Source: Humidesulfovibrio sp.
GTDB taxonomy: Bacteria > Desulfobacterota > Desulfovibrionia > Desulfovibrionales > Desulfovibrionaceae
Direction: 5' to 3'
Assembly: GCF_031082295.1 (NCBI RefSeq)
Contig: NZ_JAVHLD010000022.1
Coordinates: 1 to 50,196 of the forward strand
Length of the DNA: 50,196 bases
The position numbers were made by a program, and so were the translations under genes. The notes under the pieces are model-generated. The model saw only the letters and a list, made by a program, of their open reading frames with translations. It had not been told where the DNA came from and did no database searches. This document shows, in pieces, positions 4,495 through 32,559 of this stretch. Position 1 is the first letter of the stretch; each line of letters begins with the position of its first letter.

Positions 4495-5175
4495 ATGACA
4501 ATGACGCCCCGCGCCCTCATCTTCGACCTGGACGGCACCCTGCTGAACACCCTGGACGATCTGGCCGACTCCGGCAACGCCGCGCTGGCCGCGCTGGGGC
4601 TTCCGGAACACCCGGTGGACGCCTACCGCCTGTTCGTCGGACTTGGCGTGGCCGAGCTGGTCCTGCGCATGCTGCCCGCGGACAGCCGCGACGAGTCAAC
4701 GCTCAAGCGCGCCGGGGCCCTGCTCGTGGACGAGTACACGCAGCGCTGGAAGTCAAAAACCCGGCCCTACCCCGGCATCGTGGAGATGCTCTCCGCGCTG
4801 CGCCAGGCCGATTTGCCCATCTGCGTGCTCTCCAACAAGCCCCAAGACTACACCGACCTGACGGTGCGCGAGTTTTTCCCGGACGTGCCATTCACCCAGG
4901 TGCGCGGCTCCAGGCCCGAGGTGCCGAACAAGCCGCACCCGGCCGGAGCCCTGGCCCTGGCCGGCGAGCTGGGCCTTGCGCCCGGGCAGATCGTCTTCGT
5001 GGGCGACTCCGCCACGGACATGAAGACCGCGCGCGGCGCGGGCATGCTCCCGGTGGGCGTGCTCTGGGGCTTCCGCGACGAGGCCGAGCTGTCCGGCAAC
5101 GGCGCCCGGCACCTGATCAAGGCCCCCGGCGAGCTGCTGCCGCTGCTGGCGCGCACCGCAGAGATCACAGGCTAG
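4495..5175 (+). CDS. gph: HAD-family phosphatase (phosphoglycolate phosphatase-like)
   Basis: A 226-residue haloacid dehalogenase-superfamily hydrolase. Motif I is FDLDGTLLNT with nucleophile Asp11 and acid/base Asp13; motif II is VLSNKP; the motif III lysine lies in VPNKPHPAG; motif IV is VFVGDSATDMKTA. A helical cap of the Gph type lies between motifs I and II. The closest match by pattern is phosphoglycolate phosphatase, which clears 2-phosphoglycolate, but relatives act on other phosphomonoesters and the substrate cannot be read from sequence. The ATG is preceded by AAGGA at 6 nt. Only 4 bp separate it from the downstream sigma54 activator. Confidence 0.85.
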   Translation: MTMTPRALIFDLDGTLLNTLDDLADSGNAALAALGLPEHPVDAYRLFVGLGVAELVLRMLPADSRDESTLKRAGALLVDEYTQRWKSKTRPYPGIVEMLSALRQADLPICVLSNKPQDYTDLTVREFFPDVPFTQVRGSRPEVPNKPHPAGALALAGELGLAPGQIVFVGDSATDMKTARGAGMLPVGVLWGFRDEAELSGNGARHLIKAPGELLPLLARTAEITG

Positions 5176-5179
5176 CGCC

Positions 5180-7624
5180 ATGCCCGTTTTCCCCGCCCCG
5201 GACCTGGACCTGCTGAACGCCGTCGACGCGGGCGTGCTGCTGCTCGACGCGGCCTCCGGCCGGGTGCTCCAGGCCAACGCCAAGGCCCAGGCGCTGCTCG
5301 GCCGCGCCGACGCCCTGCCCATGCTGTCCGGGCTGTTCGCCCCGGGCGAGGTGTCCCTGGCGGAGCTTTCCGCCGGGGTGAACGACCGCGAGTGCCGGGT
5401 CTTCGGGAGCATGGGCCTGCCCATCCCGGCGCTTTTGACCTCGCGCCCGCTGAACCAGGACGGCCGCAAGCTGCTGGTGCTGACCCTGTCCGACCTCTCC
5501 GGCCTCAAGCGCGCCGAGGCCCGCTTCCAGGGCTTTTTCGAGAACATCATCGAGGGCGTGTTCCAGTCCACCCCGGGCGGCTCGTTCCTCATGGTCAACC
5601 CGGCCCTGGCCGAGATCCTGGGCTTCGACAGCCCCGAGGAGCTGATCAACCACTTCCGCGACCTGCGCTCCCAGCTCTACGTGGACCCCAGGGACCGCGA
5701 CACCTTGCTGCGCATCCTGCGCGAGCAGGGCCGCATCAAGGACTTCGAGACGCGCTTCAACTGCAAGGACGGCTCGACCAAGTGGATATCACTCACCGCG
5801 CGCGAGGTGCGCGACCCCTCCACCGGCGAGCTGCTCTACATCGAAGGCCTGAACGTCGACATCACCGCCCGCAAGCAGGTGGAGCGCGCCCTGCGGGAGA
5901 GCGAGGAGAAGTTCCGCCACACCTTCGACCAGTCGCCCATCGGGGCCAGCATGGTGGCGCTGAATTCCACCTTCCTGCGCGCCAACGACGCCTTCTGCCG
6001 CATCACCGGCTACAGCGAGCAGGAGCTGCGGGCCATGACCTTCCTCGACATCACCCACCCCGACGACCAGGGCGAGAGCTTCTCCCAGTACGAGCGGGTC
6101 AAGGCCGGGGAGATCGAATCCTTCGAGCAGGACAAGCGCTACATCCACAAGAACGGGCACGAGGTCTGGGTGCACCTCTCCGCGGGCATGGTGCGCGACG
6201 CGCTCGGCCAGCCGCTGTACCTGCTGCCCATGGTCCAGAACATTTCCGACCGCATCGAGACCGAGCAGGCCATGCGCGGCATCCACACCGAAAAGGAGCG
6301 CCTGCGAGCCAACCTTGAGGCCATGTTCCGCTCCATCCCCGATGCCATCATCACCGTGGACACGGACATGCGCATCATCCAGACCAACCGCGCCCTGGGC
6401 GAGATCTGCTGCATCGGCTCGGAGCTCTCGCCGGGCAAGGAGCTGGCGGACCTCTCGGGCTCGTGCAAGCGGGCCTGCTTCTCCGTGCTGCGCACCACGC
6501 TCGAAACCCGGCGCCCGGTGCTGGAGCATCGCGTGGAATGCCAGAGCCACACCCCCGGCAAGGTGGTGGTCATCAACTCCTCGCCGCTTCTCGACAGAGA
6601 CAACAACTTCACCGGCGCGGTGCTCGTCATCCGCGACATCACCCGCCTGGCCGTGCTGGAGAAGCGCCTCACCGACCTGCACAGCCACCAGGGCATCGTG
6701 GGCAAGAGCAAGGTCATGCAGGACATCTACGCCGTGCTCGACCACCTCTCGGACGTAGAGTCCACGGTGCTCATCACGGGCGAGTCCGGCACGGGCAAGG
6801 AGCTGGTGGCCGAGGCCCTGCACTTCGGCGGCTCGCGCAGCAAGGGCCCGCTCATCAAGGTCAACTGCTCGGCCCTGTCCGAAAGCCTTCTGGAGAGCGA
6901 AATCTTCGGCCACACGCGCGGCGCCTTCACCGGGGCCATCCGCGACAAGATCGGCCGGTTCGAGGCCGCCGAGGGCGGCACCATCTTCCTCGACGAAATC
7001 GGCGACATCTCCCCGCGCATCCAGCTGAACCTCCTGCGCGTGCTGGAGAGGAAGGAATTCGAGCGCGTGGGCGACTCCAAGACGCGCAAGGCCAACGTGC
7101 GCGTGCTGGCCGCCACCAACGTGGACCTGCTGGAGAAGATCCGCCAGGGCCTGTTCCGCGAGGACCTCTACTACCGCCTCAAGGTCATGGTCATCCAGCT
7201 GCCGCCCCTGCGCGAGCGCACCGAGGACATCCCGCTGCTCACGGCGCATTTCATCAGCCACCTGCAGGCCGCCTTCGGCAAGAACATCACCAAGTGCTCG
7301 GAGGAGGTCATGCGGCTGTTCATGACCTACCCCTGGCCGGGCAACGTGCGCGAGCTCAAGTACTCCCTGGAGCACGCCTGCATCCTTTGCCCCGGCGGGG
7401 AAATCACCCTCGCCCACCTGCCCGCGGACCTGCTGCGGCCCATGCCCCCCCGGCCCACCCACGCCGAACAGCCCGCCCCGAGGCCGGGCTCCCGCGGGCT
7501 GACCATGCAGGACATCACCCGCGCCCTGGCCCAGACCCGGAACAACCGCGCCAAGGCCGCGCGCCTGCTCGGCATCGACCGCCGGACGCTCTACCGCAAC
7601 ATGGAGCGCCTGGGCCTCTCCTGA
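5180..7624 (+). CDS. PAS-containing sigma54-dependent transcriptional activator
   Basis: An 814-residue one-component activator with no receiver domain. In order: a degenerate PAS-like region (1-115), a PAS/PAC pair (about 116-235), a second PAS/PAC (240-360), a third PAS (380-490), the AAA+ sigma54-interaction domain (505-740) and a Fis-type HTH (774-814). Walker A is GESGTGKE at 534-541, the sigma54-contact loop is GAFTGA at 581-586, and Walker B ends in Asp605-Glu606. The third PAS carries five cysteines (410, 411, 429, 433, 454) that could bind metal, an Fe-S cluster or sense redox state. The gene ends 12 bp before a cluster of palindromes, and two perfect sigma54 promoters lie downstream, before the dicarboxylate transporter and frdC. 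I infer that it controls both. Confidence 0.93.
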
Positions 7625-7635
7625 CCGACGCAAGA

Positions 7636-7677
7636 GTGTGGCGAGCGCCACACGTGTGGCGCCACAGTCGTGGCGCG
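7636..7677 (+). promoter_or_regulatory. Probable upstream activator sites for the transporter promoter
   Basis: Two adjacent inverted repeats: GTGTGGCG-AG-CGCCACAC (7636-7653, perfect 8-bp arms) and the perfect palindrome TGTGGCGCCACA (7655-7666), followed by a half site GTGGCGCG. The 12-mer starts 126 bp before the -24 element of the sigma54 promoter, a normal distance for an enhancer site of a sigma54 activator. The same 12-mer occurs upstream of frdC at nearly the same distance. Confidence 0.75.
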
Positions 7678-7780
7678 TGCTACATTATCTCGAGCGTGCG
7701 ACCCGCTCGCACCACATTTTTTTACACTTTTTTTACAGCTAACATACGGCGTTAGCAAAAGCGCGCGAGCGATTGCCCGC

Positions 7781-7796
7781 TGGCACAACCTTTGCC
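7781..7796 (+). promoter_or_regulatory. Sigma54 (-24/-12) promoter of the SLC13 transporter
   Basis: TGGCAC-AACCT-TTGCC is a perfect match to the sigma54 consensus, with GG and GC separated by 10 nt. Transcription would start near 7806, leaving an untranslated leader of about 230 nt before the ATG. Confidence 0.88.
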
Positions 7797-7895
7797 AAGA
7801 CAGCCTTGGCAAGCATGTTGCCCACCCATCGCTAATTTCTGGAAGAGGCGTTGAGACAGGGGTGGACGACACATCTTACCTGACCACCGCGCTGC

Positions 7896-7919
7896 CATCC
7901 GGTCTGAGGGGACCGGATG
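7896..7919 (+). other. Hairpin in the transporter leader
   Basis: CATCCGGTC-tgaggg-GACCGGATG, a perfect 9-bp stem with a 6-nt loop inside the roughly 230-nt leader between the sigma54 promoter and the transporter start. There is no T tract, so it is not an obvious terminator. It may affect message stability or translation. Confidence 0.5.
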
Positions 7920-8036
7920 TGCCGACAGAGCCGCCCACGCGAAAGCCGTGCCCAAAGGGGGAATTTTGGGGCCATCGTCCGGGGCATACCGCGAGCGCCG
8001 TGCGTCACCAACCTGCAACGCGCACCTGGAGGGGCC

Positions 8037-9521
8037 ATGCAAGACAAGTTGAAAGTTTACGGACTATTCCTCGGGCCGATCGTCTTTCTCATCATCTGCT
8101 TCCTGCCGCTGCCCGAAGGACTGACCCAACCGGCCCTGTACTGCGGCGCCGTCACGGCCCTCATGGCCATCTGGTGGATCACCGAGGCCATTCCCATCCC
8201 GGCCACCTCGCTGATCCCCATCGTCCTGTTCCCCCTGCTGCAGATCCTGCCCACGGCAAAGGTCACTCCAGCGTACTCCAACCACCTGATTTACCTGTTC
8301 ATGGGCGGCTTCTTCATCGCCGTGACCATGGAGCGCTGGAACCTGCACTACCGCATCGCCATGCACACCATTCGCATGGTGGGCACCAGCCCCTCGCGCA
8401 TCATCCTGGGCTTCATGATCGCCACGGCGTTCTTGTCCATGTGGGTGTCCAACACGGCCACCACGGTCATGATGATGCCCATCGGCATGGCCATCATCAA
8501 CGCCTGCGCCGAGATCACGGGCGACAAGGACCTGAGCAGGAACCCCTTCGCCATCGGCCTCATGCTCTCCCTGGCCTACGCCGCGTCCATCGGCGGCATC
8601 GCCACCTTGATCGGCACCCCGCCCAACGTCATCATGGTGGCCCAGCTTGACAAGCTCTACGGCCAGACCATCAGCTTCGCCCAGTGGATGCTCATCGGCG
8701 TGCCCCTGGCCGCCACCTTCCTGTTCGCCGCCTGGGTGCTCATCACCAAGATCCTCTACCCGGTGCACGGCGACATCCTCATGGGCAAGGGCGAAGAGCT
8801 CGTGCGCACCGAGATCGCAAAGCTCGGACCCATGAAGCGTGAGGAAAAGATCATCACCATGGTCTTCGTGGCCGCCGCCGCCGCCTGGATCCTCATGGGC
8901 CTGGTGAAGCTGCCCTTCATGAAGGGCGTCTCCGACGCCACCGTGGCCGTGGCCGCGGCCCTGGCCCTGTTCCTCATCCCCTCGGACTTGAAGAAGGGCG
9001 TGTTCCTGCTTGACTGGAAGACCGCCGTGAAGATCCCCTGGGACGTCATCCTGCTCTTCGGCGGCGGCCTGGCCCTGGCGGGCGCCTTCCAGAGCACCGG
9101 CCTGACCCAGTACATCGCCGGCGGCCTGACCGACATGAACGGCATGCCCGTCATCATCATCCTGGGCGCCATCGTGGCCCTGAACATCTTCCTGACGGAA
9201 GTGACCTCCAACACCGCCGTGGCCACCCTCATGATCCCCATCATGGGCGCCATCGCCGTGGGCATGGGCATCCACCCCTTCGGCCCCATCATGGCCGCGT
9301 GCATCGCCTGCTCCTACGCCTTCATGCTGCCGGTGGCCACGCCGCCCAACGCCGTGGTCTTCGGCTCCGGCGCGGTGACCATCCGCCAGATGGCCAAGAC
9401 CGGCCTGTGGCTGAACCTCCTCGGCATCGTGCAGATCACGCTCGTCGTGTACTACCTGGCCCCCATCGTGCTCGGCATCGACCTGAACGTGCTGCCCGAC
9501 TGGGCCATCCCCAAGAAGTAA
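8037..9521 (+). CDS. SLC13/DASS-family dicarboxylate transporter
   Basis: A 494-residue inner-membrane transporter of the divalent anion:sodium symporter family, which takes up succinate, fumarate, malate or related anions with sodium. The paired signature motifs are visible: SNTATTVMMMP near residue 138 with IGTPPNV after it, and the second-half copy TSNTAVATLMIPI with ATPPNAVVFGSG after it. About a dozen hydrophobic segments span the length. The ATG (MQDKLKVYG) follows TGGAGGGGCC. The gene has its own sigma54 promoter, enhancer-like palindromes and a strong terminator, and sits before frdCAB, so I infer that it imports fumarate or malate for fumarate respiration. The exact substrate is not shown by the sequence. 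Confidence 0.92.
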   Translation: MQDKLKVYGLFLGPIVFLIICFLPLPEGLTQPALYCGAVTALMAIWWITEAIPIPATSLIPIVLFPLLQILPTAKVTPAYSNHLIYLFMGGFFIAVTMERWNLHYRIAMHTIRMVGTSPSRIILGFMIATAFLSMWVSNTATTVMMMPIGMAIINACAEITGDKDLSRNPFAIGLMLSLAYAASIGGIATLIGTPPNVIMVAQLDKLYGQTISFAQWMLIGVPLAATFLFAAWVLITKILYPVHGDILMGKGEELVRTEIAKLGPMKREEKIITMVFVAAAAAWILMGLVKLPFMKGVSDATVAVAAALALFLIPSDLKKGVFLLDWKTAVKIPWDVILLFGGGLALAGAFQSTGLTQYIAGGLTDMNGMPVIIILGAIVALNIFLTEVTSNTAVATLMIPIMGAIAVGMGIHPFGPIMAACIACSYAFMLPVATPPNAVVFGSGAVTIRQMAKTGLWLNLLGIVQITLVVYYLAPIVLGIDLNVLPDWAIPKK

Positions 9522-9544
9522 CCCGGCGCACAGAGTCCCCCCGG

Positions 9545-9578
9545 CGGGCGGGCAGCGCACGTGCTGTCCGCCCGTTTT
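9545..9578 (+). terminator. Rho-independent terminator after the transporter gene
   Basis: CGGGCGGGCAGC pairs with GCTGTCCGCCCG (12 bp, one G-T wobble) around a 6-nt loop and is followed by TTTT. It isolates the transporter from the frd operon, which has its own promoter. Confidence 0.85.
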
Positions 9579-9623
9579 CATTCACAACAAAAAAGCAAGC
9601 CACTTCAGGTGGTTCTGAGCAAC

Positions 9624-9665
9624 TGTGGCGCAGCCCCACATGTGGCGCCACACCATGTGGCACAT
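9624..9665 (+). promoter_or_regulatory. Probable upstream activator sites for the frd promoter
   Basis: Three adjacent dyads: TGTGG-N7-CCACA (9624-9640), the perfect palindrome TGTGGCGCCACA (9641-9652), identical to the one upstream of the transporter, and ATGTGGCACAT (9655-9665). The identical 12-mer starts 128 bp before the -24 element. Confidence 0.75.
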
Positions 9666-9768
9666 GCCTCGCAACCAGCGTCCGGATAAGCCGAAGCCCA
9701 GGCTTGTTTTTAGCAATTTGCGCAGCAAGTACGGGGTGTTGCCGGTCCAACGCGGGCAGCCGCCCGCA

Positions 9769-9784
9769 TGGCACGGCAATTGCC
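9769..9784 (+). promoter_or_regulatory. Sigma54 (-24/-12) promoter of the frd-fum operon
   Basis: TGGCAC-GGCAA-TTGCC, a perfect sigma54 consensus with GG-N10-GC. Transcription would start near 9795, giving a leader of about 250 nt before frdC. Apart from the operator dyads and this promoter, I see no convincing gene in the 526-bp gap between the transporter and frdC. Confidence 0.88.
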
Positions 9785-10047
9785 TTAAAGTGCGCGAGCA
9801 CAAAATGCGTTCTCCTGGCCTTTCGGGAGCCCTGCCCGCGCAGGTCTCCTGGTCCAGCGCGAACAGCTCGAGGAGAGGATGTACGGTTTCGGCCGAAGAT
9901 GAAGGCAGACGCGGCCACGCACCCTCCACCGGGCTGTTTTTTCGCCCCGGCCCTGGACTGCGCGACCGAAATACGGCAACAATGCACAGTAATCGTTCCG
10001 GCACCCCGCCGGGGCAAATTCCAAGAAAAATGCAGATGGAGGTTCGA

Positions 10048-10707
10048 ATGTCCGTTCCCTTGACCGCCAATCACAAAAGTCTGCAAAGCCATCGCTTCGA
10101 TGGCCTGCTGGACTGGGCGCAGATGCTCTCCGGCGCGGGGCTCATCCTGTTCATGTGGGCGCACATGCTGCTCGTGGGCAGCGTCGTCCTGAGTCCCGGC
10201 ATCATGAACGCCATCGCGGAATTTTTTGAGAACACGGGCATGGCCCAGGTGGGCGGGCCGCTGATCTTCCTGCTCTTCCTCGCGCACTTCGCCCTGGCCG
10301 CGCGCAAGATCCCCTTCCGCCTGGAGGCGCAGGGGACCATCTGGGAGCACGCAAAGCTCCTGCACCACACCGACACGTGGCTCTGGGTCATCCAGGCCGT
10401 CACGGCCATGATCATCCTGATCATGGGCTCCATCCACATGTGGGCGGTGCTCTCCGACCTGCCCATCAGCGCCGCCAAGGCCGCCAAGGTCCTGCAGGAG
10501 CACAGCGGCTGGTTCCTGTTCTACCTGGCGCTGACGCCGCTGGTGCACGTGCACCTTGGCATCGGGCTGTACCGCATCGCCATCAAATGGGGTTTCGCGG
10601 GCCGCGCCGAGCGCGCCGCGCTGAAGCGTGTTGTGACGCTCATCGTCCTGGTCTCCGTCGGCATCAGCGTGCTGGCGCTGATCCGGTTCTGGTTCATGGC
10701 AGTCTAG
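10048..10707 (+). CDS. frdC: fumarate reductase cytochrome b subunit FrdC
   Basis: The 219-residue membrane anchor of a Wolinella-type (B-type, two-haem) menaquinol:fumarate reductase. Five hydrophobic segments are visible. Candidate axial haem ligands are His39 (FMWAHM), His80 (FLAHFA), His130 (GSIHMW) and His169 (LVHVHLGIG), one in each of four helices. The ATG (MSVPLTANHK) has an ideal GGAGG at 5 nt, so longer in-frame starts are rejected. The C-A-B gene order is that of Wolinella frdCAB. His167 stands two residues before the last ligand, where I recall that the Wolinella enzyme has the functional Glu180. The enzyme can run as fumarate reductase or as succinate dehydrogenase. Confidence 0.93.
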   Translation: MSVPLTANHKSLQSHRFDGLLDWAQMLSGAGLILFMWAHMLLVGSVVLSPGIMNAIAEFFENTGMAQVGGPLIFLLFLAHFALAARKIPFRLEAQGTIWEHAKLLHHTDTWLWVIQAVTAMIILIMGSIHMWAVLSDLPISAAKAAKVLQEHSGWFLFYLALTPLVHVHLGIGLYRIAIKWGFAGRAERAALKRVVTLIVLVSVGISVLALIRFWFMAV

Positions 10708-29939: not shown

Positions 29940-31157
29940 CTACCCGTGCCGCTCCCGCAGGATGCGCGCAGCCTGGGCCATGCTCCTGAGCTTGGCGGCG
30001 GCGATGTCCTCCACGTTGACGCAGCGGTTGGCGAAGCAGCCGAACCCGCAGTCCGTGTTCAGGAAAATCTGCTCCGGCCGGTAGTACGCGAGCGCGGCCT
30101 CGGCCTTCTCCACGATGAACTCCGGCGTCTCCACGTCCACGGTGCGCGGGTTGACCACGCCCAGGCCCAGCTCGCGCGGCAGGTCCGTTTCCGGAACAAC
30201 GCCGGACAGGGCGCGACCCACCACGCCGATGTCGCCCGCGCGCGGGGTGGCGTATTCCAGCACATACTGGCGCACGTGCATGCGTTCAAGCGCGGGCAAA
30301 AGCGCGGTGTAGTCGCCCGTCAGGAGCACCTCTTCCTTGGTGCTCCAGTTGCCCCGGCAGATGTGCAGGCCTATCCGGGGACCGGTTTTCCCTGAAGGGT
30401 CGAAGACCCCGTCGATGATGCGGTTGATGAGGCTGGCGGCGTACCGGAGTTCTTCACCCGCGTCCCGGCGGGTGGCGAGCGTCGCTCACATGAAGGTTCG
30501 TCGGCCGCACTCCTGGCTCATGACGATCTCGGTGAGCACCGGCTCGTCGAACTGCACAAACTCGCACCCCGCCTCGGCCAGCTCCATCAGCTCCGCGCGC
30601 AGGATGGCCACCACGTCGTCGCCCAGGGCCTGCTGGTTCTCGTAGACCTTGCCCGTGTACGCGCCCACCCACATGGAGCGGTTCAGCAGGTACGGCCCGG
30701 GCAGGGTGATCTTCACCGGCTTGTCCGTGAGGCTTTTGACGAAGCGGAAGTCGTTCAGGGCCAGCGGTTCGCGGCGCTTGAGCCGCCCGACGCAGGTGGG
30801 GTTGCGGATGGCCGAGGCCGGGACGTCGAGGGTGGTCAGCATCTCCTCGAAGCCGCTCTTGTCCTCCACCTCGTCCAGCATCTCGGCCAGGCTCATGAGC
30901 TTCGTGCCTTCGACCTTTTCCGTGAGGAAGGAGTAGAAGTTGTCGCGCCGGTGCTCGCCGTCCACCACAACGTCGAGCCCGGACTCTTCCTGGATGCGCA
31001 CGGTGCGGCGCACTTCCTCGTCGGCGACAGCGTCGAAGGCCTCGCGGGCCATCTCGCCCAGGCGGCGGTCGCGCAGGGCGCGCAGCATGGCCTTGGAGCG
31101 GGGCCAGGAGCCCACCTGCGTCGTCTGAAAGGGGAGGGTCTGAGAGGGGGTCGTCAT
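29940..31157 (-). CDS. MetE-like methyltransferase, probable selenoprotein (in-frame TGA at codon 224)
   Basis: A 405-residue protein of the short cobalamin-independent methionine synthase-like family (catalytic domain only). The opening is TTQVGSWPRSKAMLRALRD; the zinc site is readable as His265 and Cys267 (GLHICRGNW), Glu301 (VLEYATPRAG) and Cys370 (NTDCGFG). The frame runs from ATG to TAG with a single interruption, TGA at 30488-30486, in RTFM-TGA-ATLATRR. As I recall, relatives have Cys there (RTFMC-type). The frame and family similarity continue perfectly after it, and a hairpin starts 11 nt downstream, the spacing of the E. coli fdhF element. I therefore read Sec224. It follows the OsmC fusion gene by 2 bp. 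Homocysteine methylation itself is not proved; thiol or selenol methyl transfer is an alternative. Confidence 0.82.
30455..30474 (-). promoter_or_regulatory. SECIS-like hairpin in the MetE-like gene
   Basis: On the coding strand CACCCGC-CGGGAC-GCGGGTG forms a perfect 7-bp stem with a 6-nt loop, beginning 11 nt after the TGA. The loop has G at its second position, which fits published rules for bacterial SECIS elements as I remember them. The bulged U of E. coli fdhF is not obvious. Confidence 0.7.
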
Positions 31158-31159
31158 CG

Positions 31160-31930
31160 TTACACCACCGCGAATTTGATTGTGAGGGCCGTGGCCTTCT
31201 TGAGCGTGGCCGCGATGGGCGAGCGCGCCACCACGTCCTCGAAGGCGGAGCGGACGGCCGCTTCGTCGTCCAGGGAGGAGGCGTAGCACTTGACCTCGAT
31301 GTCGGCGAAGGACGGGTCGCCCACCTCCATGCCCAGGTGCGCCAGCACGTTGGCGAGCCTGCCCGCCACCGTCAGCTCGATGTCGTCCAGCTCCAGGCCG
31401 CGCCGGGCGCACTCCGTGGCGTAGGCCGTCGCCAGCGAGCCGCCCAGCGCCCCGAGCAGGGCCTCCACCGCGCTCGGGTGGGCGTCCTTCTCTTCGAAGC
31501 TGGCGCTCTGGCCCAGGTCCCAGGAGAAGTTGCGGCAGTAGACCGTGGCCTTCTGGTGGCCGGTGGCCCGGGTGCGCAGGCGCCACACGTAGGCCTTGGC
31601 CTTGGCCTTGTCGTCGGCCAGGGCCTTGGCCTCGCTGGCCAGCTGCTCTTGGGCGCCACGGCGCACGAAGTAGCGGACGACGCCCGGAGCCTGGCCTGGG
31701 GCGGCGCCTTGCGCGTGGCCCAGGTACTCGTGCCCGGCCATGCGGCACCAGGGGGGCAGGTCGTCGGCCACGGTGGGCTCGCTGCTCTTCATCTCCAGCA
31801 CGCCGCCCACGGGCACCAGCAGCATGTGCTCGCGGATCATGAGCACAAGGCCGGAGCCGCAGTCCAGATCGCCGCCGTCGAAGACCACATCAGGGGTGAT
31901 CCCCGGCGGCGGCGTGCTCGCTGCAGTCAT
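31160..31930 (-). CDS. TusA-like/OsmC-like fusion protein
   Basis: A 256-residue two-domain protein. Residues 10-95 are TusA/SirA-like (VVFDGGDLDCGSGLVLMIRE with Cys24 at the sulfur-carrier position, then LPPWCRMAGHEYLG with Cys62). Residues 110-256 are OsmC-like (ALLGALGGSLATAYATECARRGLELDDIELTVAG). In peroxidatic OsmC/Ohr the two catalytic cysteines lie in GSC-L and KCP-type motifs; here the matching places appear to be Ser165 and Ser237, so it is probably not a peroxidase. The ATG lies 4 bp after the DsrE-like gene and the stop 2 bp before the MetE-like gene. I infer transfer of sulfur or selenium within this operon. Confidence 0.82.
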   Translation of the reverse strand: MTAASTPPPGITPDVVFDGGDLDCGSGLVLMIREHMLLVPVGGVLEMKSSEPTVADDLPPWCRMAGHEYLGHAQGAAPGQAPGVVRYFVRRGAQEQLASEAKALADDKAKAKAYVWRLRTRATGHQKATVYCRNFSWDLGQSASFEEKDAHPSAVEALLGALGGSLATAYATECARRGLELDDIELTVAGRLANVLAHLGMEVGDPSFADIEVKCYASSLDDEAAVRSAFEDVVARSPIAATLKKATALTIKFAVV

Positions 31931-32301: not shown

Positions 32302-32559
32302 TCAGACTCCTTTGAGTTCGGGTTTGTACTCGATGAGGTAGAACGGATGCGCCTGGTCCAGCAGGGTGTTTCTGGTCATGCGGCACCAGGAGGGAAACTC
32401 GATGGGCGCGGCGGCGTCGCGGCTGATGAGCAGCACGCGGGTGCCGGGCTCGGCCCGCTTCAGGTAGGTGTAGAGGTTGATGATCACCCGGCCGCAGGTC
32501 TCCTCGCCGCCGTCGAACTCGTCCTCGAACTCCCAGTGGTCGGGATAGTTTTCATGCAT
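32302..32559 (-). CDS. TusA-like sulfurtransferase-fold protein
   Basis: An 85-residue protein with a divergent TusA/SirA fold: FDGGEETCGRVIINLYTYLKRAEPGTRVLLISRDAAAPIEFPSWCRMTRNTLL. Cys22 sits at the position of the sulfur-carrying cysteine but lacks the CPxP context, and Cys59 sits in the same WCRM motif as in the downstream TusA-OsmC fusion, so the two are paralogous modules. It is the first gene of the four-gene operon; GGAGG lies 12 nt before the ATG. The 212-bp stretch upstream, before nadE, holds no gene that I can see. Confidence 0.75.
   Translation of the reverse strand: MHENYPDHWEFEDEFDGGEETCGRVIINLYTYLKRAEPGTRVLLISRDAAAPIEFPSWCRMTRNTLLDQAHPFYLIEYKPELKGV

Follow-up and report, generated by a model that had tools for sequence, protein, structure and literature searches.

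We describe what is probably a new selenoprotein family, in which a selenocysteine (Sec) at codon 224 would be decoded via a SECIS hairpin and a MetE-type zinc thiol/selenol methyltransferase would stand at the end of a TusA - DsrE - TusA/OsmC chalcogen relay. The gene lies on the minus strand of a 50,196-nucleotide stretch of DNA from Humidesulfovibrio sp., which in its whole length is referred to as the window. The parts of this reading differ in strength. Specifically, our data make Sec incorporation at codon 224 appear close to certain, they point strongly to a link of the Sec forms to a persulfide relay, and they are suggestive of a role of the module in selenium supply. Sequence comparison shows the pairing of Sec with Cys, the conservation of the hairpin and of the active-site residues, the presence of genes for Sec decoding, the operon itself and, in relatives, a fusion of TusA with MetE. 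This would be a selenoprotein family built on a methyltransferase barrel and tied to a conserved persulfide-carrier operon.

Positions 31157-29943 of the window (minus strand) read as 405 codons in which the sole in-frame stop is the TGA at codon 224 (30488-30486; context RTFM-TGA-ATLATRR), and the frame is closed by TAG at 29942-29940 (Table 1). A preliminary description of this DNA had claimed a single 405-codon frame broken only by this TGA, with the zinc-site residues His265, Cys267, Glu301 and Cys370 in the same frame past it, and our reading of the minus strand agrees on both the frame and the positions. The 405-codon frame matches PF01717, the MetE catalytic domain of Pfam, with 105.7 bits (cut-off 21) and is assigned to that domain. 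None of the NCBIfam methionine-synthase models scores over its cut-off on the frame, the best reaching 165.8 bits against 406. Where UGA is taken as a stop, the gene would be split into two pieces in every Sec genome.

Table 1. Predicted features of the operon that ends in the MetE-like selenoprotein gene (window coordinates).
Feature	Position	Strand	Basis
Separate TusA-like protein, 85 aa (assumed start ATG 32559), gene 1 of the operon	32302..32559	-	TusA 22.4 bits (below the 28.6 cut-off)
DsrE-family protein, 121 aa	31935..32300	-	PF02635 59.3 bits, cut-off 22.7
Fusion of a TusA-like and an OsmC-like domain, 256 aa (assumed start ATG 31930)	31160..31930	-	OsmC 43.9 bits (cut-off 27.5), TusA 22.3 bits (below 28.6)
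MetE-like (PF01717) predicted selenoprotein, 405 aa, Sec at codon 224	29940..31157	-	Single in-frame TGA
UGA codon read as predicted selenocysteine, residue 224	30486..30488	-	TGA at the same column in homologues
Putative bacterial SECIS hairpin, 7-bp stem, 6-nt loop CGGGAC, G at loop position 2	30455..30474	-	11 nt after the UGA; conserved pairs and frozen codons

The in-frame TGA is shared by all close homologues. We identified 22 full-length homologues in other genomes, 67-93% identical, and every one of them has TGA at the codon-224 column, as does the window gene (23/23). The homologues of 72-93% identity were taken from 99 relatives and from genome contigs, and the one of 67% from 395 genomes of the phylum. 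The set of 23 genes includes the window, copies of the same gene in two collections were removed from it, and L016 (TGA present, degenerate upstream) and the fragments L017 and L018 were left out. In eight pairwise comparisons dN/dS ranged between 0.12 and 0.38 downstream of the TGA and between 0.11 and 0.29 upstream of it. With 23 genes of separate genome records all carrying the TGA, a sequencing error is not credible; together with the selection that continues past the TGA, this recurrence is also the ground on which we reject a frameshift or a pseudogene, and the earlier claim that the frame is not shifted stands.

The TGA might instead be an ordinary stop, in which case the gene would be a pseudogene or would encode 223 residues followed by a remnant. 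Standard annotation would indeed end at codon 224, some copies in other genomes are degenerate or truncated (L016, L017), and the hairpin that follows the TGA is not significant by folding alone (see below). Against this stand the TGA at the same column in all full-length genes, zinc ligands that are invariant downstream of it in a region under the selection given above, Cys in the nearest orthologues and the presence of a Sec machinery (the latter two below), and we judge an ordinary stop very improbable.

At the codon-224 column, the 11 nearest orthologues without TGA, which are 39-53% identical to the window protein, all have Cys (11/11), as the preliminary description had stated of relatives. 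The motif is TFMC or SFMC followed by [AG][AS][LM]. These orthologues came from searches of 395 and 350 genomes (two phyla) and of plasmids; 11 were examined, and two further Paracoccus versutus plasmid matches lie outside this count. Among seven distant MetE-like homologues (alignment A2), six have another residue at the column and one, L078, has Cys within a different motif. No Cys is aligned to the codon-224 column in 15 Chloroflexota relatives of <35% identity, most of which have a gap there. L062 (Dehalococcoidia), an apparent distant relative, was rejected for its broken frame. A maximum-likelihood tree of 41 rows unites the 23 Sec rows in one clade (support 100/100) and places the 11 Cys rows beside it, a topology as would be expected for one Cys-to-Sec change; we only infer the direction of this change because the tree is midpoint-rooted and has several open forks.

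The window hairpin, CACCCGC-CGGGAC-GCGGGTG, is a perfect 7-bp stem that starts 11 nt past the TGA, with the stem length and spacing previously noted for it. Its folding alone is not beyond chance (z = -1.49; 14/200 shuffles fold as well), and an Rfam search for SECIS at the window locus (E up to 1) matched no family. It is through comparison across homologues, and not through folding alone, that the putative SECIS is significant. Across loci the stem is CACCCGC/GYGGGTG, and its five inner pairs (G-U counted) can be formed in 22/22 distinct sequences representing 27 loci. The two outer pairs fail in L064 only, and the minimum-energy fold contains the stem in most loci, L053 folding differently. 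The loop is CG[GT]GA[CT] in all 22 distinct sequences and includes the same G that is conserved in bacterial SECIS loops according to the accessible text of PMC1088965 and PMC1794560.

Changes in the stem are one-sided (G-C to G-U, C-G to U-G), and there is no two-sided covariation. The synonymous codons of the stem are frozen, with ACC in 22/22, CGC in 22/22 and GGT in 21/22. Mean normalised codon entropy is 0.29 for the six stem codons and 0.73 for 27 codons outside (Mann-Whitney p = 0.005), and for codons +1 to +14 (n=11) synonymous freezing gave p = 0.036 (Mann-Whitney), both p-values being only a guide as the compared rows are related. Some codons outside the stem, i.e. Glu at +12 and Cys at -7, are also nearly fixed. 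We regard the frozen synonymous codons as a stronger sign of the predicted SECIS than the one-sided pair changes. At the corresponding distance the stem is absent from the folds of all 11 Cys orthologues, though L094-L096 have short hairpins of other kinds close by.

A search of the genome itself for selA, selB, selC and selD was positive for all of them: selB over the cut-off (384.6 bits), tRNA-Sec (80.9 bits vs 47), a selA homologue (tblastn, 48.5% over 379 aa) no more than about 2 kb from selB, and a selD whose frame contains a single TGA, which points to UGA being decoded as Sec elsewhere in this genome as well. Among the 23 genomes tested SelB scored over the cut-off in 20, namely 15/17 with the TGA gene and 5/5 that have the Cys form; G294, where the gene is a different one, is not among them. 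The two TGA genomes without SelB over the cut-off are 81% and 73% complete. As support for a selenium role this co-occurrence was rejected as uninformative given the background, selB being listed for 353/395 Desulfobacterota and 273/350 Chloroflexota genomes sampled. It is listed for four of five Chloroflexota genomes with the module, G620 being the one without.

The operon has the order TusA - DsrE - TusA/OsmC - MetE(Sec), with MetE(Sec) last and a spacing of 1 to 4 nt with the chosen starts. This operon, with its sulfur carriers, had gone unnoticed in the preliminary description. Both TusA calls in the window are below the Pfam cut-off, and OsmC and DsrE are above it. In full-length Sec loci TusA/OsmC adjoins the Sec gene in 30/30 and DsrE is found in 29/30, counts made with the window and with duplicates of a gene that occurs in two collections. 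The one locus without DsrE (L012) has a short flank, and in the same gene with a longer flank (L054) DsrE is situated about 0.9 kb further upstream. Of 28 Sec loci searched (copies of one gene included), 26 have the first TusA; the two misses, L047 and L055, begin inside DsrE. Moreover, DsrE, TusA/OsmC and MetE are common to 10/10 stretches of 15-20 kb from other genomes, and window ORFs of at least 100 codons outside the operon match at most three of these stretches, in practice two genus-mates. It is hence the operon that is conserved, and not the region.

The OsmC domain encoded at 31160-31930 has Ser at what we take to be the usual catalytic Cys positions of OsmC (GGSLATAY, SPIAATL), and the domain may serve in binding instead of as a peroxidase. 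TusA and DsrE are separate genes in the window and not parts of one chain, as they are in YedF (TIGR03527; accessible text of PMC5322559), and an NCBIfam scan of the three operon partners gave no YedF match. In 10 loci of 15-20 kb around the Sec operons, a tblastn search with Paracoccus proteins (E 1e-10) found no selA or selB homologues.

Three Cys orthologues (L068, L069 and that of Paracoccus) have a TusA domain fused to the MetE domain, and in L068 and L069 DsrE is located just upstream. The remaining 8/11 (L065-L067, L094-L098) have no TusA or DsrE in the 10-20 kb examined; OsmC and rhodanese adjoin the gene in L065 and L067, and OsmC only in L066. Among five Chloroflexota Cys orthologues OsmC is adjacent in three, and in two an OsmC-like match is about 2 kb away. 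The five Desulfobacterota Cys loci gave no selA or selB homologues (tblastn with Paracoccus proteins, E 1e-5). On the Paracoccus ferrooxidans plasmid pFER4 the genes run TusA, DsrE, two unknown proteins, TusA-MetE (Cys), selA and trxB, with a SufS-type cysteine desulfurase beside the run and selB at a distance of about 8 kb from its first gene, TusA. This gene order recurs on a P. versutus plasmid at 97-100% identity, and the continuation of the run into selA represents one lineage. The two proteins between DsrE and TusA-MetE on pFER4 (L079, 12853-14937) have no Pfam or NCBIfam match at E 0.001.

This arrangement bears on a reading in which the whole module is dedicated to selenium, with a YedF-like TusA/DsrE relay for SelD and a MetE-like protein that demethylates or traps methylated selenium. 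The Paracoccus run into selA and trxB, with the desulfurase and selB in its vicinity, fits such a function, as do the tie of YedF, a TusA-DsrE fusion, to selD in the accessible text of PMC5322559 and the proposal, in that of PMC10418091, that UroD-superfamily methyltransferases demethylate methyl-selenium compounds. However, selA and selB homologues were found neither in the 10 Sec loci nor in the five Desulfobacterota Cys loci at the thresholds given above, selB co-occurrence is uninformative, and G620 carries the module and is not listed with selB. We give dedication to selenium a limited chance. The in vivo selenium form used by SelD and its donor system are incompletely elucidated (PMC13188914), and the Paracoccus run, with selA, cysteine desulfurase, TusA and DsrE, makes the module a candidate for this selenium-donor question.

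In a profile alignment Ser17, Glu68, Asp204 and Cys370 fall in columns aligned to T. maritima MetE, and according to the accessible text of PMC7857596 the MetE counterparts of the first three bind homocysteine and that of Cys370 is a zinc ligand. The assignment of His265, Cys267 and Glu301 as zinc ligands uses the HxC motif and the spacing in place of a printed alignment. In the 22 rows of A2 none of the seven residues varies. As assigned by sequence, the protein has both the zinc ligands and the homocysteine-binding Ser, Glu and Asp that mark MetE and the core methionine synthases. The AlphaFold model is a barrel (pTM 0.81, mean pLDDT 75.9), the nearest solved fold being that of T. maritima MetE (1t7l). 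The Asp-Glu-Pro strand is followed by a loop particular to the family, which bears the Sec (Cys in relatives); in the model the loop 206-230, including residue 224, has pLDDT <50 and Sec224 is not placed. Sec224 comes after the strand that ends near Asp204 and ahead of the one leading to His265 and Cys267, a position that by barrel logic would put it on the catalytic face, where it could serve, apart from the zinc ligands, as a second nucleophile.

A plain core methionine synthase (like MesA-MesD) that uses Sec, with neighbours belonging to general sulfur metabolism, would likewise keep the zinc and homocysteine-binding residues (residue list in the accessible text of PMC7857596). No other MetE relative was found in the genome with this query, and most Cys orthologues found (8/11) are without TusA and DsrE nearby, both of which agree with such an enzyme. 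Yet its best NCBIfam score is far under the cut-off (see above), the partners of the Sec form are persulfide-carrier families, and the TusA fusion has no obvious place in methionine synthesis. In addition, the genome encodes a MetH-like protein (839-aa frame, 443.8 bits, below the model cut-off), from which we argue that MetE(Sec) is not the only methionine synthase; the idea that it is the sole one of the organism is weakened by this gene. A plain synthase is in our judgement unlikely.

For the family in which Sec is linked to the carrier operon we envisage the following. Selenocysteine would be inserted at UGA 224, the hairpin that immediately follows serving as the SECIS, and the single-domain MetE-type barrel would retain its zinc ligands and homocysteine-binding residues. 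The carriers would bring sulfur (or selenium) as persulfide to this barrel, zinc would activate a homocysteine-like substrate, at its thiol or selenol, for the transfer of a methyl group, and on a lid loop Sec224 would act as the second nucleophile, accepting a chalcogen atom or a methyl group. Carried further, TusA/DsrE may hand S or Se to Sec224 of a zinc- and selenium-dependent terminal MetE relative, the zinc site exchanging methyl with the homocysteine-like substrate. Such a relay could recover Se from methylated forms for SelD, or make an S/Se-amino acid from carrier-bound chalcogen; we advance this version tentatively, as a possibility. The reaction of MetE(Sec), its direction and its physiological substrate are what we infer from the residues and partners described.

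Among known systems MesA-MesD, the folate-independent MetE relatives of PMC7857596 and PMC7005905 (accessible text of both), share with MetE(Sec) the single MetE catalytic domain, the zinc ligands and the homocysteine-binding residues; MetE(Sec) differs in its extra Sec/Cys loop, its scores below the NCBIfam cut-offs and its place in a sulfur-carrier operon. YedF has TusA and DsrE together, as here (PMC5322559, accessible text), whereas the window operon has two TusA-like domains and a separate DsrE, plus OsmC and a MetE-like enzyme. Adjacent dsrE and tusA also occur in the sulfur-oxidizer clusters of PMC4175335; in the accessible text of that paper, however, these adjoin heterodisulfide-reductase-like genes, while the window operon ends in a MetE-like selenoprotein gene. 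The Type 1 mlp clusters of PMC10418091 likewise link a methyltransferase of the wider superfamily to selenium, but as described in the accessible text they comprise UroD-superfamily proteins (a different family), corrinoid proteins and methyltransferases without Sec.

The in-frame UGA, the downstream hairpin, the Sec/Cys pairs and the sel genes are features shared with known prokaryotic selenoproteins (PMC13188914). The May 2026 inventory in Table 1 of that paper (119 prokaryotic families and subfamilies) has no MetE-like or PF01717 entry, and none of the nine new selenoprotein families in the accessible text of PMC12013277 is MetE-like. In the literature covered, accessible in part, we found neither a MetE relative with Sec nor an operon of this kind; papers behind a subscription and supplementary files, e.g. 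the lists of predicted selenoproteins of PMC8318568 and PMC12013277, were outside its scope and might hold an earlier mention.

A second UGA family was seen in the MetE superfamily; here the HxC motif has TGA in place of its zinc-ligand Cys (HL-UGA-RGN). It comprises four otherwise open frames of 376-436 codons, three from Chloroflexota (L129 in G799, L130 in G648 and L131 in G568), which are 93-94% identical to each other, and one from Desulfobacterota (L070 in G294), to which the three are about 61% identical. A relative, L132 (G608), has Cys at that position. The predicted fold has a short hairpin after the UGA in L129, L131 and L070, not in L130. With respect to decoding, selB is listed for G568 and G648; because it is not listed for G799 and was not found at E 1e-60 in G294, the UGA may represent Sec at the zinc ligand or something else.

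Two of the Cys orthologues have neighbours of other kinds. In L118 (G612; 5947-9582) the gene is beside relatives of the Rv1680 substrate-binding-like protein and the Rv1679 acyl-CoA dehydrogenase and an OsmC-like gene, all on one strand, the Rv1680 and Rv1679 matches being below the NCBIfam cut-offs. In L117 (G620; 4678-10307) OsmC is behind the Cys orthologue and an NMT1-type substrate-binding protein is encoded upstream, together with an ORF that by eye resembles an ABC ATPase, a set that suggests uptake of a small organic substrate.
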